Shown here one piece after another: positions 1,767 through 41,954 of a stretch of 42,103 nucleotides of DNA; within the stretch, counting starts at the first letter, position 1, and every line of letters starts with the position of its first letter. Origin of the DNA: a virus; IMG/VR virus record IMGVR_UViG_3300001533_001301, positions 1 to 42,103 of that record; one strand, 5' to 3'. The translations under genes and the position numbers were made by a program. Under the pieces are notes generated by a model. It saw only the letters and a program-made list of their open reading frames with translations. It ran no database searches and was not told where the DNA came from.

Positions 1767-2591
1767 ATGTGTGGCATAGTGGCGTGGTTTTCAAAATACG
1801 GAATAGAAAAAAGTGAAATCCTTCTTGCGGGAATTAACACGCAGGAAAGAGGGACAGACGGAGCAGGAATATGGACGCTTGAAAAAGGACTATCAAAAAC
1901 AAATAAAAACTTTTCTGAAAACTTTAACGGGTTCGCCGATAAACTGCCAGATAACTCCAAATTCGGCGTGTTACATAACAGGTGGAAAACTCACGGAATT
2001 AGCGCACTGGTAAATACCCACCCATTTCGTTCCCATGGGTGGGTTATGGTTCACAACGGAACAGTCACAAGGTTCAATGACTATTATAGTGCGAAAGATA
2101 TGCAAAAGTGGGCTGACAAAAAAAGACGTGGCAAAACTGACAGCGAAGAACTTTTTTACGCAATATTATTTTATATCATTGAAGAAAAAGTAAAAGTAAA
2201 AATAGCTGTTAATAGGGCGCTTGACAGTTTTCACGGAAACTATACAGTATTGCTTTTCAATGAAGAAAGAAAAGTATGTTACTTGTTTTCAAATTACTCA
2301 AGGTATCTTATAAAAAAAGCCAATAGAATGTGGTTCTTTTCCGAAAAATCCATTGCGGACGCAAGTATTGACACAAGAAAATATAAGGAAGTAAAAATTA
2401 AGGATAATGTAATATACTGCATTGACCTTGAAACGGTTGATATTGTCGGCTTGGGAAGACTGTTTAATGGCTCAATGGGATATACACGCTGTTACAGTTA
2501 TGTTCCAAGGGTTAGCACGGCAATTAAAGAAAAACCTTTAAAAAAAGTTTATCCTTCAAAACGATATAAAGGACAAGGACAGTTATGGTAA
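1767..2591 (+). CDS. class II glutamine amidotransferase (stand-alone, GlmS-type domain)
   Basis: A 274-residue Ntn-hydrolase that should release ammonia from glutamine with the N-terminal Cys2 after Met removal. Visible signature residues match the GlmS/PurF class: MCGIVAW at the start, R28-G29, H70-N-R72-W-x-T-H76-G, N83-T-H85-P, H96-N97-G98 and T124-D125-S-E127. The SIS synthase half of GlmS is absent, so ammonia must go to another protein or the enzyme acts as a transferase or amidase. It is three genes upstream of a predicted amidoligase, the most obvious partner. A second, diverged copy lies near the right edge on the opposite strand. Confidence 0.88.
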   Translation: MCGIVAWFSKYGIEKSEILLAGINTQERGTDGAGIWTLEKGLSKTNKNFSENFNGFADKLPDNSKFGVLHNRWKTHGISALVNTHPFRSHGWVMVHNGTVTRFNDYYSAKDMQKWADKKRRGKTDSEELFYAILFYIIEEKVKVKIAVNRALDSFHGNYTVLLFNEERKVCYLFSNYSRYLIKKANRMWFFSEKSIADASIDTRKYKEVKIKDNVIYCIDLETVDIVGLGRLFNGSMGYTRCYSYVPRVSTAIKEKPLKKVYPSKRYKGQGQLW

Positions 2592-2617
2592 ATTCCCTGC
2601 TGGAAGGAGGAATAAAA

Positions 2618-3496
2618 ATGATAGCAGACAAGGATTTAAGAAAAACGCAATGTCTTACGTATGAAGATATGCGATACATATTCAGGGATTTAAAAATGAA
2701 ACAGTATGACCCTGCAATATTACTGTATAAAAAAGAAAAACTTATATGGTATGAGAAAGGTTTGTTCTGCGAGCTGGCAGGAATAGCCCGCAATACCATT
2801 AAGAAATTTATGACAAATTATTATGTTTCCCTGTTTGACTTTAGCCTTAAAAAGTCTTTTTACGCAATAGACTCAAGGGAAGCACCGTTATATTCTCTTG
2901 TTATGACAGAAAAAATAATGGGTATATATTTTAAGATAAAGGAAACATTTATTAAGAGCACAAGCGTCGCAAGCGGACCAGTTTTAATAAAAGACCTTAT
3001 AAAAAAGAACGAATTTGAATACAATAAAGAGCTTTCCGAAATAGAACGAGCCATGCGGGGCATTGAAAATAACGCCGATACATGGACTTACGACACGCTT
3101 TTACTTGATGAAAAAGAGGAGCAGGATAAAAAAAATGAGATAAAAATACCTGAAAAAAAGGAACCTCTTGTCAAGACAAAGGATTATAGATATGGTTGGG
3201 ACGATGAATACGACCTGTATGACAGCGGATATTATTATCCGAACAAGAAATATGGGTATGGCTCCGATACGGTTTTTGCGACGGTAAAAGAAAAAAACGC
3301 TTATGATGACCTCAACTCGAAAAAAAAGAAACTTTCTTTTTGCGATGCTTACGCAATAGCGAAATGTATTTCGGGAGCAACCCTTGAAAACATGAGGTTT
3401 TTAAGAATAATGGCAAGACGCATAAAGGACGGGTGTTTTTATTACAACGAGCCTGTAAAGAAAATAATAAAAAAATGGCTGAAAGGCGGTGATTAA
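2618..3496 (+). CDS. hypothetical protein between amidotransferase and JAB hydrolase
   Basis: A 292-residue protein I do not recognise. The N-terminal half is helical and has a possible helix-turn-helix-like segment near 45-65. A charged linker with many Lys/Glu precedes a Tyr/Gly/Asp-rich stretch (about 195-225, for example DYRYGWDDEYDLYDSGYYY). The C-terminal 60 residues are helical and basic. AAGGAGG before this ATG argues for it over an earlier in-frame start inside the previous gene. Its position between an amidotransferase and a JAMM hydrolase makes it a candidate partner or substrate of the module; this is inference. Confidence 0.7.
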   Translation: MIADKDLRKTQCLTYEDMRYIFRDLKMKQYDPAILLYKKEKLIWYEKGLFCELAGIARNTIKKFMTNYYVSLFDFSLKKSFYAIDSREAPLYSLVMTEKIMGIYFKIKETFIKSTSVASGPVLIKDLIKKNEFEYNKELSEIERAMRGIENNADTWTYDTLLLDEKEEQDKKNEIKIPEKKEPLVKTKDYRYGWDDEYDLYDSGYYYPNKKYGYGSDTVFATVKEKNAYDDLNSKKKKLSFCDAYAIAKCISGATLENMRFLRIMARRIKDGCFYYNEPVKKIIKKWLKGGD

Positions 3497-3497
3497 C

Positions 3498-3974
3498 ATG
3501 TTTGTGTATGAAATCAAGCTGGAAATAAGCAACAGGATAGAAGGAATAAAAACAAAAAAAGACGCAAAGAATTGGGTCTGCAAACAACTGCTTAACAATA
3601 GTGCTTTTGAAAACAATGTTGCAATAGCGCTGGCGGCAAATAAGCCGATAGGATATACATTGCTTTCAAGGGGAGACGCACAGGGAACAAATTCCAACCT
3701 TAAAGGGTTGCTTGCATTTGTGTCGCTCACACAAGCAGACGCAGTTATTCTTATGCACAACCACACCTATGGGGGTCTTATGCCGAGCAACGCAGACATA
3801 CAGATATTTTACAAGACAAAAAGGGTTCTTGAAACCATAGGGGTTGAACTGGAAGGAATGTATATTGTAAACAATGAAAGAATAAAAGATATACTTGACT
3901 GGTATAGTCACAAGGACTATACTCACATTTTTAAGGAAGCGAAAGAACGCTTTTGGTGGAACTTTGGAAAGTGA
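3498..3974 (+). CDS. JAB/JAMM metallo-hydrolase, RadC-like
   Basis: A 158-residue single-domain protein. The JAMM zinc motif is complete: H87-N-H89, S97 and D100 (HNH-x7-S-x2-D spacing), with a likely catalytic Glu38 on the preceding strand. The flanking pattern (a 'SRG' strand, then ADAVILMHNH) is that of the RadC/JAB family. JAB domains are zinc isopeptidases or peptidases in several systems; RadC's own biochemistry is unsettled. It lacks the helix-hairpin-helix region of full RadC. It sits between an amidotransferase and an amidoligase gene, so removal of an amide- or peptide-linked group is an attractive role. An anti-restriction or DNA-repair role is the alternative. Confidence 0.8.
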   Translation: MFVYEIKLEISNRIEGIKTKKDAKNWVCKQLLNNSAFENNVAIALAANKPIGYTLLSRGDAQGTNSNLKGLLAFVSLTQADAVILMHNHTYGGLMPSNADIQIFYKTKRVLETIGVELEGMYIVNNERIKDILDWYSHKDYTHIFKEAKERFWWNFGK

Positions 3975-3984
3975 GGTGAAATAA

Positions 3985-4188
3985 ATGGGCGGTTGTTTTG
4001 GAAATCATCCAGTTGACAGATATCTTGAAAACCAGTTAAACAGGCACCTTGATGAGGAGGAAGAAGCAATTCAAAGGTGTGAGAAGTGCGTTCATTGCGA
4101 CGCTATAAACGATGTGAACAGCAAGGAATACAAAGAGTATTGTATGATATGCGAAAAAGGCGTGGATAAATACGAAGAAAAACCTTGA
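3985..4188 (+). CDS. small cysteine-rich phage protein
   Basis: A 67-residue protein starting MGGCFGN, a start I associate with small conserved phage proteins of unknown function. An acidic helix (about 10-30) is followed by C32-x2-C35-x2-C38 and C53-x2-C56, likely one zinc site. Its last bases contain the -35 box of the amidoligase promoter. Confidence 0.65.
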   Translation: MGGCFGNHPVDRYLENQLNRHLDEEEEAIQRCEKCVHCDAINDVNSKEYKEYCMICEKGVDKYEEKP

Positions 4189-4212
4189 CAAAATTTGACA
4201 ATGTTGTATAAT
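4185..4212 (+). promoter_or_regulatory. consensus sigma70 promoter for the amidoligase gene
   Basis: Perfect TTGACA and perfect TATAAT separated by 16 bp, overlapping the stop of the preceding gene. The expected start point is near 4219, giving a leader of about 20 nt with AGGAGG and the amidoligase ATG. I see no other fully consensus promoter in the left arm. Confidence 0.85.
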
Positions 4213-4239
4213 GTTTAATGAAATAAGGAGGTGGCAAAA

Positions 4240-5535
4240 ATGCCGTTTAACAGAAACAGGCTTCGGGCATTCGTTGAAGACAGAGACGTTCCGCAAACCA
4301 CAGAAGAAACATGTCGCGAAATACAGGATTACGCAAGGAGCGAGGGGATGTCATATAATCCCCCTTCACGAAATTTTATTTTGCGTTATCTTTCCGCAAG
4401 GGTTGGGCCTTATCGAAGGGAACGCATTACACCTGATGTGCTTCGGACTTTTAGGTATAACCCACAAGCAAACGACGCTAATTTAGATACCATAGACGCA
4501 ATGTATGAAATGGTAACCACCCCAAGAAATACAAGGGGAAACGCTCAAAACACAGCAAACAGCAACCGTAACAGCTCCACGGATGTTACAGAGTTTATGG
4601 AAAGACTGCGGGTGCTTACAAGCACAATCGCAATAAACAGAATAAAAACACAGGCTGAAAGAAATAACGCAGATTTAAGAGACAGACATTTTTCAGTGTT
4701 CATGGATAACATTGACACCATACGTTTCGGAATTGAAGTTGAAAAATGTGTCTCTGGCGAAAACATTCCGTCTGACATTCAGTATTTTCATTCTTATGGC
4801 AACACGGCATTAAAGACCGACTCCACTTGCGGAATTGAGTTTACAACTGGAACAGAAAGCGTGGAAAAAATAGGTATAATTCCAGAAATGCTTGAAGACA
4901 GTTTTAAATTTCGCAGGTTTAACGAAATTAACGGCACCTTCCCGCAAAGGATAGCTGGAATACATACGCACCTGTCAATAAAAATGGCAGACATAAGTGC
5001 TTTAAGGGAAACAATATTGCATAATTTGCAGAGCTTGTGTTTGTTTTTAAGCCCGTTTTTTGGGTGGGGAAGATTAAGAAACAGGCATATTCGCTGGAGC
5101 AATACAGATACAACAAACCATTATGCGATAGTGAACATAAGGAACAGCAACCTTTATGGACACTATGAAATAAGAGGCTTTGGTTCTGACGAAAATCCGT
5201 CGAGGATAGGAGACAAACTGAATTTATCGTTGCTCTTTCTTATGTGCGCTTTTGAAAAGAACATAATGAATGAAGTTTGCAGCGCTATTTCAGAAATAGC
5301 TCCCCATTCTTTTGACGTGGCAAATTCTTGCAACGTGCGTGACTTCATGCGGTGGAGAAAAAACAAACACGCCGTATATGAAAGATTTAAGAATGTTATG
5401 GCTTCAAAAGTTGACAGAGTTGTCCGAGACCCAAGATTGTCCAGATATGACACAACAGTCAATGCTCTTTTAGGGGCGAAACGAAGGTTAATTTCAACCA
5501 TTGACCAAGCCAACAGTTCAAACGGCGTATTTTAA
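4240..5535 (+). CDS. predicted amidoligase (glutamine synthetase-like COOH-NH2 ligase)
   Basis: A 431-residue protein. The catalytic part (about 150-345) carries the order of motifs I recognise for the Amidoligase_2 family: FGIEVE (163-168), DSTCGIEFTTG (194-204), GIHTHLS (240-246), and an Arg/Asn strand region ending HYEIRGFGS (308-316). These acidic, His and Arg residues correspond to metal, ATP and substrate sites of glutamine-synthetase-fold ligases, which use ATP to join a carboxylate to an amine. The N-terminal 150 residues look unrelated and helical, with a Asn/Ser/Thr-rich linker near 95-115. ATG chosen because AGGAGG is 8 nt upstream. Substrate unknown; a cell-wall peptide, protein side chain or small metabolite are all possible. 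Confidence 0.78.
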   Translation: MPFNRNRLRAFVEDRDVPQTTEETCREIQDYARSEGMSYNPPSRNFILRYLSARVGPYRRERITPDVLRTFRYNPQANDANLDTIDAMYEMVTTPRNTRGNAQNTANSNRNSSTDVTEFMERLRVLTSTIAINRIKTQAERNNADLRDRHFSVFMDNIDTIRFGIEVEKCVSGENIPSDIQYFHSYGNTALKTDSTCGIEFTTGTESVEKIGIIPEMLEDSFKFRRFNEINGTFPQRIAGIHTHLSIKMADISALRETILHNLQSLCLFLSPFFGWGRLRNRHIRWSNTDTTNHYAIVNIRNSNLYGHYEIRGFGSDENPSRIGDKLNLSLLFLMCAFEKNIMNEVCSAISEIAPHSFDVANSCNVRDFMRWRKNKHAVYERFKNVMASKVDRVVRDPRLSRYDTTVNALLGAKRRLISTIDQANSSNGVF

Positions 5536-5757: not shown

Positions 5758-5770
5758 GGAGGTGGATGAA

Positions 5771-7102
5771 ATGGAAGAAACAGAAAAGAAATATACTGCT
5801 TTAATGAAACACGAAGATACGGGGGCTATTTTTAAACCTGAAAACAAGGAGGTTCTTGACGTAATAAGGAATACTGTTTGCAAAGGCGCAACCCCTTCTG
5901 AATTTGTTATGTTTCTTGAAATGTGCAAAGCAACAGGCCTTAACCCGTTTCTTAATGAAATATGGTTCTTTAAGGTCAATGGACGTGTTGCCATGATGGC
6001 AGGACGGGACGGGTTTCTGAAAATAGCAAACAACAACTCGAACTTTGACGGCATTGAGGGAGAGGTTATATATCCGAACAACGATATAAACCAGACCCCT
6101 ATTGGTGCATGGGCAAAGGCTTACAGAAAAGACAGGCGTATTCCAGTTAAAATAACTGTCTCTTTCAAGGAGTATAACAGACCAAACTCTGACAGCTGGA
6201 AACGTTATCCGTCCGCAATGATACTCAAGGTTGCGGAAAGCATGGCTCTTAAAAGGGCTTTCTCTGTGTCGGGCCTTGTAAGCGCCGAAGAAATGGGCGG
6301 AAAGAACATTGAGGAAGTTTCCTTGGCTCAAAACGAAATATCAGCTTCGGACGATACGCAGAAACAGAAACAGGATGTTTATTTTAAAATTGTCAACACA
6401 AAGAATGGAAACAAGGTTCTTCGCGAGAGCCTTGAAAAAAGCGGGGTTGCCAAAGCACGGGACCTTACGCTCGACAAACTTAAAGAAATACTTGAAGAAA
6501 CAGAAAAACGAAATGAAACAGAAATAACCGAAGAAGCACAGAGGGTCTATGACGAAAATGACTCAGGCTATTTCTTTACCCCGTTAAAAAACGGCAACAT
6601 TGAATGTGATAAGGTAAAATCAGGCGTTGTGGAAAAAATCTATACGCTGTCTGTTATTGGCAACAGCGTGGACTGTAATTGTGAGGGCTTTCAGTTTAAA
6701 AAGAAGTGCAAACATGCGGAAAAGCTCACGGCACGCCTCGAATACGAAAAGGAGTTTTGCGAAAACATCATGAAGGAACAAGGCGAAGACACCCCGTGGC
6801 AGAAAATAAAGCCAAACATGATTATGGTTTTATTGCAGGAAAAGGAAGAAGAAAAAGCTATGTTCCAGCCAATAAAAGCAAAAGATTACAAGGCTGTTAA
6901 TTTTCAGGACATAATCAACTATCTGCGAGAACAACTGAAATATGACATGAGCGTTGCTGAAATATGGCAGTGTTCCGAGATTATGTTCCCGACAACAGAC
7001 CTCAAAAAGGCGTCGCAAAAGAAATTAAGGGAAATTTTTGAAACCCTTATCGAAAAACCAGAAAGCCTGCTAAAAGGTATGCTTTCAGAAAGGAACGATT
7101 AA
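5771..7102 (+). CDS. RecT/Bet-type single-strand annealing protein with C-terminal SWIM zinc finger
   Basis: A 443-residue protein. Residues about 40-180 match the Bet/RecT annealing family: TGLNPFLNEIWFF (55-67), MMAGRDGFLKIA (75-86), FDGIEG, the 'W..YPSAMILKVAESMALKRAF' helix (143-164) and EEMGG (173-177). Such proteins anneal complementary single strands in phage recombination. A second domain has C302-x-C304-x8-C313-x-H315, a SWIM zinc finger, which is not part of standard RecT proteins and may bind DNA or a partner. The last 80 residues are helical. The exonuclease partner is the next gene. AGGAGG lies 8 nt before this ATG. Confidence 0.85.
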   Translation: MEETEKKYTALMKHEDTGAIFKPENKEVLDVIRNTVCKGATPSEFVMFLEMCKATGLNPFLNEIWFFKVNGRVAMMAGRDGFLKIANNNSNFDGIEGEVIYPNNDINQTPIGAWAKAYRKDRRIPVKITVSFKEYNRPNSDSWKRYPSAMILKVAESMALKRAFSVSGLVSAEEMGGKNIEEVSLAQNEISASDDTQKQKQDVYFKIVNTKNGNKVLRESLEKSGVAKARDLTLDKLKEILEETEKRNETEITEEAQRVYDENDSGYFFTPLKNGNIECDKVKSGVVEKIYTLSVIGNSVDCNCEGFQFKKKCKHAEKLTARLEYEKEFCENIMKEQGEDTPWQKIKPNMIMVLLQEKEEEKAMFQPIKAKDYKAVNFQDIINYLREQLKYDMSVAEIWQCSEIMFPTTDLKKASQKKLREIFETLIEKPESLLKGMLSERND

Positions 7103-9598: not shown

Positions 9599-9809
9599 CC
9601 TCGAAAAACCAAAACAATACGTTTACAGGGTTGAAATAACGCAACCAAGAGACAATGACGCAATGGCTAAAAAGTATTCCCTTGTGGTCGGTGGCTCAAC
9701 AGAGGAAATAATATCGGCAATAACGGAAGTATATGGGGAAGACTCGGTAATTGAAGCCCTTCATCGTTCAGCCATAGATGAAATTTTAATAACAGGAGGA
9801 ATAAAATGA
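9573..9809 (+). CDS. hypothetical small protein
   Basis: A 78-residue protein with a beta strand (YVYRVEITQP), a second strand (YSLVVGG) and a helix pattern. It overlaps the HTH gene by 26 bases and the GroES gene by 4, so its reading depends on coupling. No family recognised. Confidence 0.55.
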   Translation: MTKKPLVIDLEKPKQYVYRVEITQPRDNDAMAKKYSLVVGGSTEEIISAITEVYGEDSVIEALHRSAIDEILITGGIK

Positions 9810-10099
9810 AATTCAAAGCAAGAGGAGACAGGTTAATCGTAAAGTATCTTGACTTCAACAAAGACCAGGAAGTTGACAAAAAAAGCGGGATTATTCTTTT
9901 GAGTCAGGATGAAAAAAAAGCTCTCGTGCAAGCAAAAATTGAAGGGATAGGTGACGGTATTAAAGAGGACTTGAAAATTGGGATGACAATACTGGTCCCC
10001 AGATACGTCGGCCAGCGCATTGGCATGAAAGGGACCGAAGATTTCGAGCTTATTATTGTTGATGAAAGAGACGTTCTTGTTATTGTTGAGGAGGATTAA
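9806..10099 (+). CDS. GroES-like co-chaperonin (Cpn10)
   Basis: A 97-residue protein of the correct length for GroES. It shows the family order: RGDRLIVKYLD (6-16), SGIILLSQDEKK (the mobile-loop end), VQAKIEGIGDG, IGMTILVP, and a C-terminal strand ILIVDERDVLVIVEE-like end. The loop between residues 17 and 27 (NKDQEVDKKSG) would contact GroEL. Phage co-chaperonins such as T4 gp31 replace host GroES so that GroEL can fold the coat protein; I infer the same here. No GroEL gene is in the window. Confidence 0.85.
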   Translation: MKFKARGDRLIVKYLDFNKDQEVDKKSGIILLSQDEKKALVQAKIEGIGDGIKEDLKIGMTILVPRYVGQRIGMKGTEDFELIIVDERDVLVIVEED

Positions 10100-11730: not shown

Positions 11731-12075
11731 ATGAAGGCAGAAACAGCAAGGGCATTACAGGCAATAGCTCAAAAAGTGGCAACGCTATATGGCAACCAAG
11801 ACAGAGAAAAAAATTACCACAAGGAAACATTCACTCTTGTGAAAATAAAGCCCCTGTCAGAACTTACGGCTCTCGGTATTTACATAAAAGATGTTACCAA
11901 CAAAGTTGCGTGCGTGTTCTTTTATTACATCGAGCCATACAAGGAATGGAGATACTTTATTCCAAAAGACAGCCACCTGCTGGGAATGCTTGCGTTTCCT
12001 GATGAAAAAAAGAAAGCGGAAGAATGGAACTATGAAAAGAACTTTGACAATGAAAAGGGAGGAGAATACGAATGA
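11731..12075 (+). CDS. hypothetical protein upstream of GGCT-like gene
   Basis: A 114-residue protein, central part beta-rich (FTLVKIKPLSEL, CVFFYYIEPYKEW, YFIPKDS). AAAGGAGGTG precedes its ATG. Its stop overlaps the cyclotransferase-like start (ATGA), so the two are co-translated and may work together. No family recognised. Confidence 0.6.
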   Translation: MKAETARALQAIAQKVATLYGNQDREKNYHKETFTLVKIKPLSELTALGIYIKDVTNKVACVFFYYIEPYKEWRYFIPKDSHLLGMLAFPDEKKKAEEWNYEKNFDNEKGGEYE

Positions 12076-12449
12076 TATTGTTTGTTTACGGAACATTAAG
12101 ACAAGGTGGAAGCAACAACAAAAGTTTTTTAAGCAATTCAAAGTATCTCGGCAAAGACAAGGTAAAAGACTTTGCGCTTTATTCCATTTATGGCTTACCA
12201 GTTATTATGCCAAAAAAGGACTGGAGCGTTGTTGTTGAGGTTTATGAAATTAACACACAAACACTTGAAGAAATTGATAGACTGGAAGGGACACCTTTCT
12301 TTTACAAAAGAAAGGAGGTTACATCCGTCGCAGGAAAAACAGGTTTCATTTATTACCAGGAAAATTCTGGCAATGAACAGGTCGAGGGACGTGTTCCAAT
12401 GGAACACGGGGACTGGAAGAAGTGGAGCAATGGAATAAGATTTACCTAA
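12072..12449 (+). CDS. gamma-glutamylcyclotransferase-like protein (GGCT/AIG2 fold)
   Basis: A 125-residue protein. The family hallmark YGTLRQG lies at 6-12, followed by a GLPV strand, the VVVEVYEI strand and D69-R-L-E72-G (IDRLEGTPFFYKR), where Glu72 is the expected catalytic acid. The length is normal for a single-domain member. These enzymes release 5-oxoproline from gamma-glutamyl amines or isopeptide-like groups. In the same genome as an amidoligase and class II amidotransferases, it is the natural candidate for trimming a gamma-glutamyl adduct; that link is inference, and it is 6.5 kb from the amidoligase. Confidence 0.85.
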   Translation: MILFVYGTLRQGGSNNKSFLSNSKYLGKDKVKDFALYSIYGLPVIMPKKDWSVVVEVYEINTQTLEEIDRLEGTPFFYKRKEVTSVAGKTGFIYYQENSGNEQVEGRVPMEHGDWKKWSNGIRFT

Positions 12450-13815: not shown

Positions 13816-16800
13816 TTATTTTCCAAAAAAAGCGTCTTTGCCTCCACGTATTTCGGCGGAATTAGCAAGAAAATATCTCCAGTCTCCGCTGTCCCTCCAG
13901 TTCATAAGCCGTTTAAACTGAACCGCTCCAGGAGTAAGGCTTCTCACAACGTCCTTAAATCGGTCTTTTGGATTATCCATTACCATAATGCCGTGAATAT
14001 TTTTAATCATTTCTGGAAGCGTTCCGTCACCGATATAAAAATCAACAGACCTGTTTGCTAATACACTGTTGAACTGGAACCCTAATGTTGCGTTCATAGC
14101 TTGCGTGAGCATATATGTCGCCATAGCCCAGCGTATAAGCCCTATTCTTTCAGTGTTATTCATCTGGTCAAAGCTTTCCATAAATCCTTTTGTGTCGCCT
14201 TTTCCGAGCTTTCCAAAAGCTGTTTTGGTTGACCGACTATAAGCAGGAAGCTGTTTGCTCAATGCTCCAAACTCTTTCGTAAGGACCCTTGCCTGATGAT
14301 AAGCAAAAGTTCCAAGATGAAATACAATTTTACCGAACTCTGACCTTATGCCTTGAGGCTGTGAAAGAGCGTCAAATCTAAAGTTATATGTATCTGACCA
14401 GTCTTTTGCAAGCGTATCTATCATTTTTGAGTGCATGCCTGCTGCCTTAAGAGAGTCTCCCTGCCTTAATCTGAAATATTCATACAGGGCAGTTCTGTTA
14501 AAATGTTCCGTCGCAGTCATTATTTTCATCATCGTGTCATTAAACTTGCCAAAAGCACCTGTGGTTTCTGTTTCCGTCAATAAGCCTTCAAAAGCCATAC
14601 GGTTTACTTCTTCAAGAACGCCTGCCCGCCTTAACCTTTGCTTCCCCTTGTAAGACATAAGCATGCTTATTGCATTGGCGTATGCCCGTCCTGTCTGAAC
14701 AATAGATTTGTATGTTGGTATTATCCCTGCGACTGTATCCTGTTCTTTTGCCAGGGCAAGCAACGGCTGCGTTAAATTCACAAGACCAGCCCTTGGAGAC
14801 ATGCCAAGTGTTGCCCAATAGTTTGCTATTTTAAGGCCCCCGATAATTTTGCTTCCTATTTTCCTGGGGATTATCTCCGTCGCAGGAATGCCTTCAACAT
14901 CCCGAACAAATCTTTGTGTTACAGGGTCAAACACATCCCCCTTAACAAACAACGTTTCGCCTGATTTATATACCTCTGGGTTTTTAATACCCTTCTTTCT
15001 TGCGTGGTATCGCACAAAAAGCTCGCTCGCAATAGGTATGCTTCCTTGTGTTATCATTCCCCTTATGTATTCGTCAAACTTTGTTTCTCTCCCCATTACA
15101 TCAATTATAAGGTTTTCAAGGTAAGTTCCTATTTTTTTATTAGACCTTGCTATTTCTGGTTCTATTGTGTTGAATATCTTTGCAATAGGAGACCAGACAA
15201 TTCCCCTGTGTGTCATGTTAAGGTAATTCTTCATTTGTCCAATAATATCTCCAGACTTATACCCAAGCTGGTTAGGAGTTCTTTTTATAATGGACGGGTC
15301 AAGAACTTTCATTTCTCCAAGTGCGACAATCTCAAAAGATTTTTGAAACCTGTCATACTGAATGAGCTTGTTTAACATTTCAGTTGATTTTTCTGGGCGT
15401 ATAAAATTAAGTTCCCTCACCCATTCAACAAGAGTCTGCTTGTCCCAAAAGCTGGGTATCTTTGCTTCCGCTTTACCACCCTTATATCCCTGCATTTCAC
15501 GGAGTATCTGATACATTACCGCCATTGGTTCAAGTGTTCTATAAGGCTTAAGGTCAAACCCTGCTTCTTCAAGTATTGTTTTTGCGTATTTATTTGTCAT
15601 GTCTGCTTTAAAATCAAGCCCCGCCGCTATTCTGTTGCGAACCCAATAAGGTGCTTCTTTCGTTGATTGCAACGCACGTATCAGATTTTCTGAAGTATTT
15701 TCTATTCTCCCTTCGCTTGCCTCAAGTTCACGCACAGCATTTTTATATGTAAGTTCTTGTATCTCGCCTTTTTCATATCCCTTGTTAAGGGCGTCTTTTA
15801 TTTCATTTTTAAACCCTTCGGCTGTTTCCGTATAAAAAGAATATCTTTCTTTTACTTTTTCAAGTGTTTTGCCAGATTTTTTTGAAGCAACAGCTTCCTC
15901 AAAAGCGGCTTCAGCTTTTCTGAACCCTTCCCACCAGCCAGCAATAAGATTGTTCTTTAAAAGCATATTTGTATTATGGTAAACTTCAAGAACGTCATGA
16001 CGTATATAATCCCTTACTGCGTCAAATCCAGGATACATGTCTTTAAACTGTGCGTAATAATCTGTTACTGCCCTTAACTGATTTGCAATGCGCTGTTCTA
16101 TGGGATTAAGCTCAATAGCCTGTCCGCCTTCTTTTTTAACGTCAAGCCAGTCCCATATCTTTGAAGCGCTTACGTCCAGTTTACCGAGCGTCGGGTGTCC
16201 CCGTTTACGCCATTTTTTTATTTGCTTTTCAAGTTTTTGTATCTGTGAAAGGTGCGCTTCTTTTTTCTCACGAAAATGATATTCAGAAGCATTTTTGAGT
16301 TTGTTTATAACGCCAAGTCCGAGTGCGTCAAGAACTTCCGCTTGTGTTTTTATCCATTTTTTAATTACTGTTTCAGAGGAGTTCATAACTCCGTCAAGAC
16401 CGTCTTTAAGATAATCCCTTAATGTTGCTTCAAGAGGGTTTTCGCTTGTCTTCTGAAGCTCATGTATTTGCCTGACAAAACCCATATATTGTTTCTTGTC
16501 TTTTAAGTCTATTTTTTTCATTTCCTGTGCCGACTTGCCCCACATAACTTCAAACTTCTGTTTTTCCATTTCAAAAAACCTTTTGGTGTATCCCTCTTGT
16601 TCTTTACGAAGCTCACTGTCGAGCTTTTCAACCATTTTATCAAACTCCGCTTTAAGGTCGTCGGTAAATGTTTCCCTTATGTCTTTGAGCGTTTCTTTCA
16701 TTTTTGCGTTTCTTAAACGGGGTGCCATGTTAACCCAGCCTTCTTCGCCGTCAATAACATACTTTTTAATTGCGCTTATTGCTCTGAATACAGCAGGCAT

Positions 16801-18963
16801 TTCTGCTCCACCCGCCATTTTAATCATAGGCTGTGCAAGCAGTTTGTGCGACGCAAGGACTTCCATGACCCTTGAAAGTTCTTTTGATGTTATTTCTCCG
16901 CGCTCTATCATTTCAGCATATTTATTCCAGGTATCTTTATCAAGGCCCCATATATTAAGTTCGTTTTTAAGAAACTTATCTATCATTTTTGGTATTTTTT
17001 CCAGCATTTCCTGTTCTGTTATCTTGCCCGTCGCAGCCTTTCTTACCTCATCCGCAACCGCTCTTTTGAGAAGCTTTTGCGTTTTTTTAGGAAGCACTTT
17101 AAGGTCGTTAATTCTTAACGCCCAGAAGTTTTCAAGCTCATCAAAATATTCCCTGAACATATCCCTTAAACCAAGGCCAGGTCCAGCAACCCCCTCTCTG
17201 CTTTCAACTCTTTTCTTTGCGTATTCTTTTACCGCTTCGGTAAATCCTCCTGGGACTATGCTCCCTTCAAGAATAACTTCTGCTTCCTCTGGACGAAGCT
17301 TTTTTATCATATCCTCTGTGTATCCCAGCTGTTTAAGCCTCGTCTTGTCTGCTTGCGTTATTATTTTTTTAGCCGAAGTTTTCTTTGGAATAACGCCTTC
17401 TTCTGCCATTGATATTATATCAGCAACCGCCTTTCCGCTCATGCTGTTAAAAGGCTTGTATATCTGTTCAACAGACTTTGCGCTTCTTCCTGATATGTCA
17501 GAAGATATGTCTTTTCGCACTTGCTCAAGCGTTTCAATGAAATCATAAAGATTTTTATTTGGGTTTGTCTTATATTCCTCGTATAACTTTTTAAGGATGA
17601 TTTCGTGTTGTTTCATTTTATCTTTCATTATTTTTATGTGGTCGGCACGTGTTTCTTCGGGGAACCATTTTTCAGCCCTCGCAACTTCCTTTTTTGCGTC
17701 AGACACAACATGCTCAACTATTTTCCCGAAAGCGGGTTTGTTTTCATCTATTATATACCTCAACGCACCATGCTGGTATTTTTCATTAAGATAATTTTGA
17801 GCGGCTTTTTTTGAACCGTAAGTGTCTGCGAGTTTTCCTAATTCAACTCCGTCTTCCGCAATCATTTGTTTTATTGCTCTTAATATTGTTGGGTTTGTGG
17901 TTTCATCAACAACATCTCTTATTTTAGCCGTTACATTGTCAAAAACTTCAGACGCCCCATAGGTATCTGTTATTTTTTTAGACATCCCGTTAGCCATTTC
18001 ATTTACTTCATTGCGAAGGCCTGCAATTTCATTTAACAGTTCTGGCGGGGCCTCTGTTGTTTCTGTCTTAATCGGAGTTTCATCTCTTGTGAAATCCTCA
18101 ATGGCTTTTTTTTGTGCGACGAGTTCTGAAACTTCACCGTTTGCCTCGGCTGCGTCTTCAACTCTATCTCTTGCCCTTCCTTTTCCTTTAATAAGCCCGT
18201 GAACCATTCCCCCAACTATTATGGTTCCAAACGGGTCGTTTGCCATTTCAAGAAATGCGTTCTTAAACTTTTCGGTTCCTGGCTTATCCTCAACAAGATT
18301 GTCTATTTGCTTAAGGCTAAATCCGAGCCCCATTGTTGCCAGCTGCGCCTGAAAACCAGTCCTAAATGCGTCTTTTACGCTTCCAGTCCCTTTGTAAGAA
18401 CCCTTAATGCCAGACAGCATTTTCCCGCTCTTTGCGACGTGTGTTGCCCCGAATGCAAGCATAGCGGTCTGTAAAAGGTGGCTGGTCCAAGCAGTAAACT
18501 TATTAAAAGCTAATGGTGAAATAGCTTTTATTTGCATTGCTATGTCTTGTTTTTTACCAGGATTATCCTCTGCGACATAAAGCTTCATCAAATCATTTAA
18601 CTGCATGAGCTTTTGTTCTTTTGCGTAATCAGGGTGAAGTCCTTTAAATATATCACCCAGCCCAGATAAAAAATTATAAGCCCATTGCCCCCCCGTTCTT
18701 GCGACGGTTGTAAGGTCCCCCTTCATTTCTTCTGGCGAAGTTACAAACCAATCTGGCTGTTTATGCTCAAGAGAAATAGACTCTTTAATTCTGTTTTTTA
18801 TAAAAGGATTATTCATAAGCGAACCCATGCCAGTTGCTCTGCCTAAAACAACATCCTCATCCGACAGGACCCTTTCTCTTGGGTCTTCGTAATGCGTCGC
18901 AAGTTCGGTCGCTGTAAGAAAATCTTTTTTTTGTAAATCGCTCGCTCTCATATATACAGGCAT
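13816..18963 (-). CDS. giant internal virion / DNA-ejection protein (1715 aa)
   Basis: A 1715-residue, mostly helical protein, the largest in the window. The N-terminal 300 residues contain hydrophobic helices (LLQTAMLAFGATHVA; FGTIIVGGMVHGLI). A long Lys/Glu-rich helical middle (about 300-1150) follows. The C-terminal 500 residues (ANYWATLGMSPRAGLVNLTQP onward) resemble the conserved C-terminal part of very large phage 'polyvalent' or T7 gp16-like internal proteins, from memory only. Placement between the tail/ejection genes and the lysis genes fits a core protein injected with DNA. I see no lytic motif with confidence. Confidence 0.65.
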   Translation of the reverse strand: MPVYMRASDLQKKDFLTATELATHYEDPRERVLSDEDVVLGRATGMGSLMNNPFIKNRIKESISLEHKQPDWFVTSPEEMKGDLTTVARTGGQWAYNFLSGLGDIFKGLHPDYAKEQKLMQLNDLMKLYVAEDNPGKKQDIAMQIKAISPLAFNKFTAWTSHLLQTAMLAFGATHVAKSGKMLSGIKGSYKGTGSVKDAFRTGFQAQLATMGLGFSLKQIDNLVEDKPGTEKFKNAFLEMANDPFGTIIVGGMVHGLIKGKGRARDRVEDAAEANGEVSELVAQKKAIEDFTRDETPIKTETTEAPPELLNEIAGLRNEVNEMANGMSKKITDTYGASEVFDNVTAKIRDVVDETTNPTILRAIKQMIAEDGVELGKLADTYGSKKAAQNYLNEKYQHGALRYIIDENKPAFGKIVEHVVSDAKKEVARAEKWFPEETRADHIKIMKDKMKQHEIILKKLYEEYKTNPNKNLYDFIETLEQVRKDISSDISGRSAKSVEQIYKPFNSMSGKAVADIISMAEEGVIPKKTSAKKIITQADKTRLKQLGYTEDMIKKLRPEEAEVILEGSIVPGGFTEAVKEYAKKRVESREGVAGPGLGLRDMFREYFDELENFWALRINDLKVLPKKTQKLLKRAVADEVRKAATGKITEQEMLEKIPKMIDKFLKNELNIWGLDKDTWNKYAEMIERGEITSKELSRVMEVLASHKLLAQPMIKMAGGAEMPAVFRAISAIKKYVIDGEEGWVNMAPRLRNAKMKETLKDIRETFTDDLKAEFDKMVEKLDSELRKEQEGYTKRFFEMEKQKFEVMWGKSAQEMKKIDLKDKKQYMGFVRQIHELQKTSENPLEATLRDYLKDGLDGVMNSSETVIKKWIKTQAEVLDALGLGVINKLKNASEYHFREKKEAHLSQIQKLEKQIKKWRKRGHPTLGKLDVSASKIWDWLDVKKEGGQAIELNPIEQRIANQLRAVTDYYAQFKDMYPGFDAVRDYIRHDVLEVYHNTNMLLKNNLIAGWWEGFRKAEAAFEEAVASKKSGKTLEKVKERYSFYTETAEGFKNEIKDALNKGYEKGEIQELTYKNAVRELEASEGRIENTSENLIRALQSTKEAPYWVRNRIAAGLDFKADMTNKYAKTILEEAGFDLKPYRTLEPMAVMYQILREMQGYKGGKAEAKIPSFWDKQTLVEWVRELNFIRPEKSTEMLNKLIQYDRFQKSFEIVALGEMKVLDPSIIKRTPNQLGYKSGDIIGQMKNYLNMTHRGIVWSPIAKIFNTIEPEIARSNKKIGTYLENLIIDVMGRETKFDEYIRGMITQGSIPIASELFVRYHARKKGIKNPEVYKSGETLFVKGDVFDPVTQRFVRDVEGIPATEIIPRKIGSKIIGGLKIANYWATLGMSPRAGLVNLTQPLLALAKEQDTVAGIIPTYKSIVQTGRAYANAISMLMSYKGKQRLRRAGVLEEVNRMAFEGLLTETETTGAFGKFNDTMMKIMTATEHFNRTALYEYFRLRQGDSLKAAGMHSKMIDTLAKDWSDTYNFRFDALSQPQGIRSEFGKIVFHLGTFAYHQARVLTKEFGALSKQLPAYSRSTKTAFGKLGKGDTKGFMESFDQMNNTERIGLIRWAMATYMLTQAMNATLGFQFNSVLANRSVDFYIGDGTLPEMIKNIHGIMVMDNPKDRFKDVVRSLTPGAVQFKRLMNWRDSGDWRYFLANSAEIRGGKDAFFGK

Positions 18964-39944: not shown

Positions 39945-39978
39945 GAGGGAAACAAAAAGAAGAAAGGAGGTGCAACAA

Positions 39979-40161
39979 ATGGTGAGAATGCGATTTTTCA
40001 GCACGAAGTCAGACGGTGAAGACGTGGACAAGAAAGTGCGGGATTTCTGTAAGACACGCAGGGTTATAGGAATAAAGACCCTCGTAAAAGACGATTACCG
40101 TTCGTTCAAGGTCCATTACAACACCAGGAAAAGGGCTGACGCCACGCAAAGACCCCAGTAA
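39979..40161 (+). CDS. small basic protein, last gene of right block
   Basis: A 60-residue protein, basic at the end, with a strand-helix-strand pattern (RMRFFST, DKKVRDFCKTRR, IGIKTLVKDDYRSFKVHY). AAAGGAGG lies 8 nt before this ATG. No family recognised. Confidence 0.6.
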   Translation: MVRMRFFSTKSDGEDVDKKVRDFCKTRRVIGIKTLVKDDYRSFKVHYNTRKRADATQRPQ

Positions 40162-40250
40162 GAAGGACCATTTACTTAAACATCACAGAGAGGCAGCTCG
40201 AAGCGAAATTTGCTCGCCGAGTGGGGCGGCGGCCGAAAAACCCCACCTTT
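40162..40250. other. non-coding GC-rich spacer before tRNA
   Basis: A GC-rich stretch (GGGGCGGCGGCCG) that I tested as a tRNA or CDS and could not support. It may be tRNA 5' leader. Confidence 0.35.
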
Positions 40251-40324
40251 TCCAGGGTCGTCCAATGGCAGGACACGTGTCTTTGGCACACGGAACGGTG
40301 GTTCGACCCCACCCCCTGGAACCA
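40251..40324 (+). tRNA. tRNA-Gln (anticodon UUG) with encoded CCA
   Basis: A complete cloverleaf: acceptor TCCAGGG/CCCTGGA (7 bp), D-arm GTCC/GGAC, anticodon stem CGTGT/ACACG with loop CTTTGGC giving anticodon TTG, variable GAAC, T-arm GGTGG/CCACC with TTCGACC, discriminator A and genomic CCA. The weak U1-A72 pair is a known tRNA-Gln trait. It would read CAA (and CAG). Confidence 0.93.
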
Positions 40325-40532
40325 ACCCCGCGCCGCCGTCGCAAATTACACCTTGCTATAACACACTCATCAGAAATTGACCCCCCATAAATCCCAGCAC
40401 GCCGTCGCAACAATAGCCTTTACCCCCTCGGTTTTACTCCCTTATCCTGCAACGTTTTACAACATTTTGCCCCCTTAACCAAAACCCCCCTGTTTATAAC
40501 ACTTTTCCCAAATTTCATGTAATTTTTTTCCT

Positions 40533-40580
40533 GGGGGATACACGTGAGGCTTATTGGGGTCGAGTGTGGGGGGTGTGGGG
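40533..40580 (+). other. G-rich tract with G-quadruplex potential
   Basis: Four runs of at least four G (GGGGG, GGGG, GGGGGG, GGGG) are separated by loops of about 18, 8 and 3 bases. The first loop is long, so a stable quadruplex is possible but not certain. Confidence 0.4.
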
Positions 40581-40609
40581 TCTGCTGTCGGTTTATGTTA
40601 ATAATATGG

Positions 40610-40704
40610 GGTCTTTCTTTCCCTTAAAGACCTATAAGGTATAAGTATTCTGGTATTTGTTTATTATAGCCCGCAGAGAAACGGGCGGTTTCGCAGAATG
40701 AAAC
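40610..40704 (+). other. three consecutive hairpins
   Basis: GGTCTTT/AAAGACC (40610-40632), GCCCG/CGGGC (40669-40686) and GTTTC/GAAAC (40688-40704). The last two are stacked one base apart. This is more structure than I expect by chance in a non-coding AT-rich stretch and may be an RNA element. Confidence 0.4.
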
Positions 40705-40908
40705 AGGTGGATAGCCATGTGAAACTTTGAGGCGCCTCACTAAATAAGAGAAACAGCGACGATTAAAGCACCTTCCAGCCCTGTAAAATATACTGTTTTT
40801 TTGACTGCCTGTCCGTTATGTTTTTTAATAACTATCATTACGACGTGAACCATAACGCCAACCGTCCGCTTTCCTGCCTTCCTCTCCTATCCCTTATATA
40901 TACACTGT

Positions 40909-40968
40909 TAACATTGACCGCCGACACGTCCAGCCGTCTAACATTGACCGCCGACACGTCCAGCCGTC
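40909..40968. repeat. perfect 30-bp tandem duplication
   Basis: Two exact adjacent 30-bp copies, each containing ATTGACCGCCGACACGTCC, followed by a further partial CCAGCGTCCAG. Intergenic, just before the terminator of the leftward amidotransferase gene. Confidence 0.85.
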
Positions 40969-40986
40969 CAGCGTCCAGCCCAAAAT

Positions 40987-41025
40987 AAAAAAGGCAGTCA
41001 AGCACCGTTTAAGCGCCTGACTGCC
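40987..41025 (-). terminator. rho-independent terminator of the leftward amidotransferase gene
   Basis: On the minus strand GGCAGTCA and TGACTGCC form an 8-bp stem (with inner GC pairs) followed by six T. It lies 60 bases beyond the stop of the class II amidotransferase gene. Confidence 0.75.
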
Positions 41026-41040
41026 TGCGTTGCCGTGAAA

Positions 41041-41110
41041 CCCTTCCTTTTTTTATTTTTTATTTTGTAACTTTGCCCTTCCTTTTTTTATTTTTTATTT
41101 TGTAACTTTG
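41041..41110. repeat. perfect 35-bp tandem duplication at the gene end
   Basis: Two identical 35-bp copies of a T-rich sequence. The copy nearer the gene contains its last codons (KLQNKK) and stop; the outer copy repeats them untranslated. This is a duplicated 3' end. Confidence 0.85.
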
Positions 41111-41954
41111 CGTATTCTGTTGCGACACCATCCACTTTCGTCGGCAGTTTCCCGTTTTTTACCCACCTTTTTGGCAAGTCAATATATTGACCGCCGACGT
41201 TAACGCTGACTGTCTTTTTTTCCTCTCCCTTTAATTTTTTTTCTGCCTCTTTGTTCCAGTTGTTCCAGTTGTCCCAGCCTTTTGACGTCGTGATGACTTT
41301 TTCTCGCCTCAGCGTGAATATATATTTTACCCCGTCCGCTGTTAGCTCAAAAACTTTACGATATTTTACAGGTTTCACAGTATTATTGCAATAATACTGT
41401 GAAAGATTATAGCTTAAATCTTTTGAGGCTATGAAACAGCCCCTTGCGGATTTGTGCAAATACATGTTGTTATTGTTATGGACACCGTAAATTTTACCCG
41501 TTGTCCGGTCTAATAACAAGACCGCAAACCCTTCAGACTTTTCGACAGATTTTTTTAATAACGCAGAAATTGAAAAACCTTGCCTATAGTCTTTTGCCAT
41601 TTTCTCAAAAAAGATTTTACTGTCTGATTTTTTGTCATCGTTGCCGTATTTCACAAAAATGCCATTGTGGACGCCGTAAAGAGTATCCGTTATCGCAAAC
41701 GGGTGTATATTTGTGTTGTCAATAACCCCGTCCGTCGCCATGCGTCCATGACAGAGCCCTGTCTTTCCTGCTTCTTTGTTGTTAAGAAGTTTCTTGAAAA
41801 AATTATCTGTGTAAAGTTCTTTAATTTTTATTGTTTCTGACACAACGCCAAGCCCGTCTTTCCCCCCCAAATTATACATTGACGTAATAAGCGACGCCAA
41901 AAATGAAACGCTTTTTTCCTTGTGATGATTTTTCCAGCCGATTAAAAAGCACAT
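41088..41954 (-). CDS. second class II glutamine amidotransferase-like protein
   Basis: A 288-residue protein. Cys2 (MCFLIGW), H69-G-R71-M-A-T, N82-I-H84-P-F, H96-N97-G98 and S110-D111 reproduce the class II glutaminase signature of the left-arm protein. The Arg of the usual RG-x-DG motif is not seen (GKDG near 31-34), so it has diverged or uses different glutamine contacts. The C-terminal 80 residues differ from those of the first copy. AAGGAAGGTGG precedes its ATG. Its own terminator and isolated leftward orientation suggest separate control from the left-arm module. Confidence 0.82.
   Translation of the reverse strand: MCFLIGWKNHHKEKSVSFLASLITSMYNLGGKDGLGVVSETIKIKELYTDNFFKKLLNNKEAGKTGLCHGRMATDGVIDNTNIHPFAITDTLYGVHNGIFVKYGNDDKKSDSKIFFEKMAKDYRQGFSISALLKKSVEKSEGFAVLLLDRTTGKIYGVHNNNNMYLHKSARGCFIASKDLSYNLSQYYCNNTVKPVKYRKVFELTADGVKYIFTLRREKVITTSKGWDNWNNWNKEAEKKLKGEEKKTVSVNVGGQYIDLPKRWVKNGKLPTKVDGVATEYAKLQNKK

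Follow-up and report, generated by a model that had tools for sequence, protein, structure and literature searches.

A probable reduced and diverged podoviral amidoligase cassette, with a neighbouring RadC-type JAB gene, in an orphan phage record

We analysed the IMG/VR virus record IMGVR_UViG_3300001533_001301 over its positions 1 to 42,103 (this whole stretch of 42,103 nucleotides is called the window below) and consider it fairly probable that it carries a reduced, diverged form of the podoviral amidoligase cassette, made up of a glutaminase, an Amidoligase_2-like ligase and a gamma-glutamylcyclotransferase (GGCT), together with a second glutaminase from another lineage. An original prediction, made from the sequence alone, had placed these four enzymes and a JAMM hydrolase in one pathway that installs and edits an amide or peptide tag. 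The link of the amidoligase with a GGCT and an amidotransferase stands, and such a set has already been described as a predicted podoviral cassette (PMC5498523, PMC3890496), so that this core idea was published earlier and is not new, whereas the proposed new element, a JAB protein within the pathway, is not supported by the evidence given below. The four genes are the following.

1767-2591, plus strand: glutaminase 1, a stand-alone class II (N-terminal nucleophile) amidotransferase domain of 274 amino acids (aa) (PF13522, E 4e-9; phrog_13807, 1e-15)
4240-5535, plus strand: a putative diverged Amidoligase_2-like (glutamine-synthetase-like) ligase of 431 aa, catalytic part at about residues 160-330 (hhalign and ordered motifs)
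12072-12449, plus strand: a gamma-glutamylcyclotransferase/AIG2-like protein (GGCT) of 125 aa (PF06094, E 6e-22; phrog_2520, 3e-19)
41088-41954, minus strand: glutaminase 2, stand-alone class II of the MEP401/402 type, 288 aa (phrog_4736, E 2e-6; under the Pfam cut-off)

Both glutaminases carry the N-terminal Cys and the R..T.G, N.HP, HNG and D motifs and are complete class II enzymes. In glutaminase 1, which is predicted to be the ammonia supplier, the active-site motifs MC1, HNRWKTHG, NTHPF, HNG and TDSE are complete and in order, the E. coli GlmS glutaminase (PDB 1xff) is matched with an E value of 8e-10, and the best annotated phage matches include the cassette glutamine amidotransferases (GATases) of RIO-1, 7-11, KIT05 and T5S1. 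Glutaminase 2, in which every active-site motif is likewise present, shared 48% identity with the MEP401/402 GATase across 52 aa. In a tree, glutaminase 1 was joined to the cassette GATases and GFAT and glutaminase 2 clustered with the MEP GATases (94/91), both placements being tentative because the branches are long. With only 24% identity between them and a separate phage lineage for each, the two proteins do not look like the products of a recent duplication. Human faecal GATase matches turned out to be ordinary GFAT.

The GGCT, with YGTLR at residue 6 and DRLEG, containing the acidic catalytic residue, at residue 69, matched YtfP (PDB 1xhs) with an E value of 4e-9. The amidoligase, the least certain of the five family assignments, was recognised with a profile built from six phages (RIO-1, KZY1, T5S1, QDWS535, KIT05 and 7-11): in an hhalign screen of all open reading frames (ORFs) of at least 100 aa in the window, the 4240-5535 ORF scored 71% (E 3.7e-5, region 168-333) and the runner-up 1.5%, and an earlier hhalign run on this ORF had given 57.8% (E 1.4e-5). 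The conserved G.E.E, D.S/T, HxH and E.R motifs are present in order, and the ordered set GIEVE...KTDSTCGIE...GIHTHLS...YEIR singled out, from 1962 ORFs, exactly this one and the 20 that encode phage amidoligases, while 200,000 shuffles did not produce it once, a result that is supportive and not independent since the pattern was composed with the alignment in view. Taken together, the profile and the motifs suggest that the 4240-5535 protein is a diverged amidoligase.

Genes of these families recur together in other phages. A 'peptidoglycan modification cassette' has been predicted in RIO-1-like phages and is common to phiEco32, 7-11, PA11, tf, LUZ24 and PaP3 (PMC5498523); it is also listed for UFV-P2 and PSA-HP1, the studies of Iyer (2009) and Hardies (2013) being taken here as they are given in citing papers, e.g. 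PMC5498523. UFV-P2 and other LUZ24-like phages carry a COOH-NH2 ligase, an amidoligase, a glutaminase, an ATP-grasp protein and an AIG2/GGCT protein (PMC3890496), and OM43 phages carry an amidoligase and a glutaminase (PMC10580990). In SU10, a relative of phiEco32, the glutaminase, ATP-grasp and YtfP/GGCT products of the cassette were seen by mass spectrometry, indicating that cassette genes of this kind are expressed. In the public phage set, 313 phage records matched the RIO-1 amidoligase. Comparison of gene orders in six cassette loci revealed glutaminase, amidoligase and GGCT together in RIO-1, 7-11, T5S1, KZY1 and Alcaligenes phage QDWS535; GGCT was present in five of the six records, whereas KIT05 had none, nor did MEP402 or one of the MEP relatives. 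Smaller sets elsewhere also speak for a reduced variant: MEP402 combines an amidoligase with a stand-alone glutaminase, and Geobacillus phage GR1 has an amidoligase beside a GGCT. The original prediction had looked to co-occurrence of all five genes across related phages; in the other phages compared, none of them a close relative, the five-gene set did not recur, whereas the set of glutaminase, amidoligase and GGCT did.

Class II glutaminases free ammonia from glutamine by means of an N-terminal cysteine, glutamine-synthetase-like ligases activate a carboxylate with ATP and then join it to ammonia or an amine, and GGCTs release gamma-glutamyl groups as 5-oxoproline. From these activities we infer a transfer of ammonia between proteins, in which glutaminase 1, after loss of Met1, would use Cys2 to hydrolyse glutamine, and the ammonia so produced, or another amine, would be joined by the ATP-dependent amidoligase to a carboxylate first converted to an acyl phosphate at its glutamine-synthetase-like site. 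The GGCT would then cleave gamma-glutamyl groups as 5-oxoproline, thereby trimming or recycling gamma-glutamyl intermediates. A glutaminase-fed amidoligase with the GGCT as trimmer is the simplest scheme for the three genes. As proposed for phiEco32 and RIO-1, the modification would take place early in infection, and its likeliest target would be a peptide of the host surface or peptidoglycan, or else a small gamma-glutamyl metabolite. A cell-wall change or superinfection exclusion, which may be the biological purpose here, is a published hypothesis for the named phages as well (PMC10580990, PMC5498523).

Several observations weigh against this assignment. The Pfam amidoligase profile PF12224 did not match the 4240-5535 ORF at E<=10 and was passed by seven of seven reference phages; the same ORF had no Pfam, PHROG or tblastn match, and a second profile, for which only MEP-type amidoligases were used, likewise failed to detect it. 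The AlphaFold2 model (predicted local distance difference test, pLDDT, 40; predicted template modelling score, pTM, 0.24) gave no fold-level confirmation and speaks neither for nor against a glutamine-synthetase-like fold. GGCTs are common outside such cassettes, and that of the window lies 6.5 kb from the amidoligase; since glutaminase 2, moreover, is encoded on the opposite strand close to the right end, the genes do not form a compact contiguous cluster. By hhalign, no window ORF exceeded 1% for the COOH-NH2 ligase (PF14395) or 3% for the ATP-grasp ligase, and the small conserved protein found between the ligases elsewhere had no counterpart in the window. Because the two ligases are missing, the full published pathway cannot run as described, and because all three components are missing the window is to be regarded as a reduced variant, one in which a cassette-related class II glutaminase, an Amidoligase_2-type ligase and a GGCT are retained. 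In addition, the literature searched contained no biochemical study in which a cassette of this kind was put to the test, so that its target is a guess, and scans of IMG/VR and GTDB gave no relative in which conservation of the gene order could be checked.

Among the alternatives, the one that survives best, though we hold it to be unlikely, is that the glutaminase and amidoligase make or amidate a small metabolite, such as a gamma-glutamyl amide, a glutathione-like compound or a cofactor, instead of acting on peptidoglycan or protein, with the GGCT closing the cycle. Gamma-glutamyl peptides are GGCT substrates, the amidoligase-GGCT pair stands alone in Geobacillus phage GR1, and phage amidoligases have been suggested to act in secondary metabolism (PMC10580990); the window, however, has no substrate-specific gene, and the published inference favours cell-wall peptides (PMC5498523).

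Rather less likely, in our judgement, is that the genes are early accessory genes forming a mosaic without functional links, in which glutaminase 2, the GGCT and the RadC-type protein described below have separate roles and only glutaminase 1 and the amidoligase cooperate, or not even these. Glutaminase 1, the JAB gene, the amidoligase and the GGCT all lie in a single long co-directional early run, which also holds the genes for RecT, an exonuclease, Cpn10 and a DnaC-like protein, so that the shared direction is not specific to the cassette genes; moreover, the genes in question are scattered across the genome on both strands, and the two glutaminases come from different lineages. These features fit a mosaic and also leave the proposal that all five enzymes form one pathway unsupported. 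Against a mosaic, GATase, amidoligase and GGCT recur jointly in several distantly related podoviruses, which argues for the reduced cassette.

Between glutaminase 1 and the amidoligase are three further genes.

2618-3496, plus strand: an orphan protein, 303-aa ORF, 292 aa from the Shine-Dalgarno-backed start (no family)
3498-3974, plus strand: a solo RadC-type JAB/JAMM metalloprotein of 158 aa (PF04002, E 1e-13; phrog_10276, 1e-12)
3985-4188, plus strand: a small cysteine-containing ORF of 67 aa, between the JAB and amidoligase genes, with GAGGTG upstream (no Pfam or PHROG family)

The complete JAMM motif claimed for the 3498-3974 protein was borne out: the metal site consists of E38, H87, H89, S97 and D100, numbered from the 3498 start, in the pattern E...HNH-x7-S-x2-D. 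Its family is RadC, with a PF04002 score of 51.8 bits against a cut-off of 22.1 and a match to the RadC structure PDB 2qlc at E 4e-5, whereas the Prok-JAB profile PF14464 gave only 0.16. RadC was found in none of eight other amidoligase/GATase phage records; conversely, none of seven RadC phages tested had a GATase_6 glutaminase and one of the seven had a PF12224 amidoligase, namely Geobacillus phage GR1, in which the amidoligase and GGCT lie about 10 kb from its own RadC. RadC JABs, unlike classic JABs, have been argued probably to be without the ubiquitin-tail groove, nucleic-acid or nucleotide processing being likelier (PMC5512222). In view of these counts and of this published opinion, we treat the RadC-type JAB as what is, with high probability, a neighbour gene and not a member of the module, most likely an early gene in its own right whose product processes nucleic acids or nucleotides, to which a neighbourhood of RecT, exonuclease, HNH-like and DnaC-like genes is a fitting setting. 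That a JAB might be encoded by the small 'hypothetical' gene separating the two ligases in phages such as RIO-1 and T5S1 was considered and rejected.

It follows a different line to let the RadC-type JAB act as the remover in a conjugation cycle, in which the glutaminase and amidoligase attach an amide or peptide tag, possibly to the 303-aa protein. In its favour, the JAB gene is packed tightly between the 303-aa and 67-aa genes, thus between glutaminase and amidoligase, with nearly no intergenic space (3496/3498), its JAMM residues are all present, and isopeptidase activity is typical of classic JAB enzymes. However, the family is RadC and not the Prok-JAB/deubiquitinase type, the tail groove is argued to be absent, RadC is missing from the eight other cassette phages, of the seven RadC phages none has a GATase and one an amidoligase, and no tag-like protein was identified, so that we regard such a cycle as very improbable. 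The particular version in which an amide or gamma-glutamyl tag is attached by the glutaminase-fed amidoligase, perhaps to the orphan protein, and taken off by the RadC-type JAB is likewise very improbable, and would, if true, be the first isopeptidase role of a RadC-family JAB as far as we know. Nothing in the analysis points to the 303-aa protein as a tag substrate. It had no relative in Pfam, PHROGs, IMG/VR or, by tblastn at E<=1, in phages; its AlphaFold2 model (pLDDT 34) was unusable; and it was rejected as a diverged COOH-NH2 ligase, ATP-grasp protein or RIO-1_7-type upstream protein, the best hhalign value being 8.8%.

The source of the window is most likely an orphan podovirus-like (short-tailed-type) phage. 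The 42-kb record encodes a P22-type portal (PF16510, E 2e-10), and its large terminase shares 26-30% identity over partial lengths with the terminases of several phages, ICP2 and VpV262 among them. Relatives were sought in IMG/VR by single-protein scans with the amidoligase, GATase, large terminase, 303-aa protein and JAB, and in GTDB genomes with the amidoligase and large terminase, in each case with zero matches; a degenerate GATase motif, though it matches the window itself, had none in IMG/VR. The negative holds for these two collections at the sensitivity of the scans used. Shine-Dalgarno sequences back the start codons at 1767, 2618, 3498, 4240, 12072 and 41954 (minus strand). Among the early neighbours are genes for RecT and an exonuclease as well as for a DnaC-like loader and an HNH-like protein. 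The RecT/Bet-like annealing protein (5762-7102, plus strand; PF03837, E 3e-33) has a C-terminal SWIM-like zinc finger (SWIM 0.004, under the cut-off), and a phage-encoded Cpn10/GroES homologue (9806-10099, plus strand; PF00166, E 5e-7) is in kind like the co-chaperonins of other phages. At 13816-18963 on the minus strand lies a gene for a 1715-aa protein with no PHROG match; to judge from how large it is and where it is encoded, it may be a polyvalent-type protein or one from the virion interior. In a gene-poor region of about 1.1 kb (39950-41090), a tandem ACATTGACCGCCGACACGTCCAGCCGTC repeat accompanies a single tRNA-Gln(TTG) at 40251-40324. The window proteins that were scanned included none recognisable as an integrase.

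Amidoligase relatives occur in hundreds of phage records, and the literature found calls their function unknown; a set reduced to stand-alone glutaminase, amidoligase and GGCT would be easier to work with than the seven-gene cassette when the substrate is sought. Identification of the JAMM protein as RadC averts a misleading account of tag removal.

Compared with known systems, the window resembles the podoviral cassette in having a class II glutaminase, an Amidoligase_2-like ligase and a GGCT among the early DNA-metabolism genes of a podovirus. It differs in being without the COOH-NH2 ligase, ATP-grasp and small inter-ligase proteins, in its stand-alone glutaminase of 274 aa as against cassette proteins of about 420-650 aa, in the 6.5-kb displacement of the GGCT, and in the inserted RadC-JAB, the orphan 303-aa protein and the second glutaminase. 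Near the cassette of QDWS535 we noticed a gene of the Peptidase C26/class I GATase-like kind (PF07722, 1e-10), and KIT05_52 is similar by eye (L007:3015-3473, L003:5247-5939); these resemble gamma-glutamyl hydrolases, and in some cassettes it may be they that encode the actual remover. The RadC-JAB itself is like the solo RadC JABs that mobile elements and phages encode, such as Tenacibaculum phage Gundel_1 and Podoviridae ctDrO704, in its size class (150-160 aa), HNH-x7-S-x2-D motif and PF04002 membership, but differs from them in sitting between glutaminase and amidoligase genes. With the gene pair seen in phages of Gram-positive hosts, namely Geobacillus phage GR1 and the Clostridium clostridioforme prophages (PMC11318856), the window shares the amidoligase and GGCT; GR1, which has a Gram-positive host, encodes them directly one after the other (40057-41289; L053:3558-4790) without a GATase_6 class II glutaminase, a still smaller set. 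Among the marine OM43 phages MEP401 and MEP402 (Zobellviridae), a 291-aa stand-alone glutaminase adjoins a long amidoligase with a C-terminal catalytic part, and glutaminase 2 of the window is of their type; MEP402 has neither GGCT nor RadC, and the window amidoligase comes from another sequence lineage. The layout of the window is closest to that of MEP402, with the GGCT retained 6.5 kb away.

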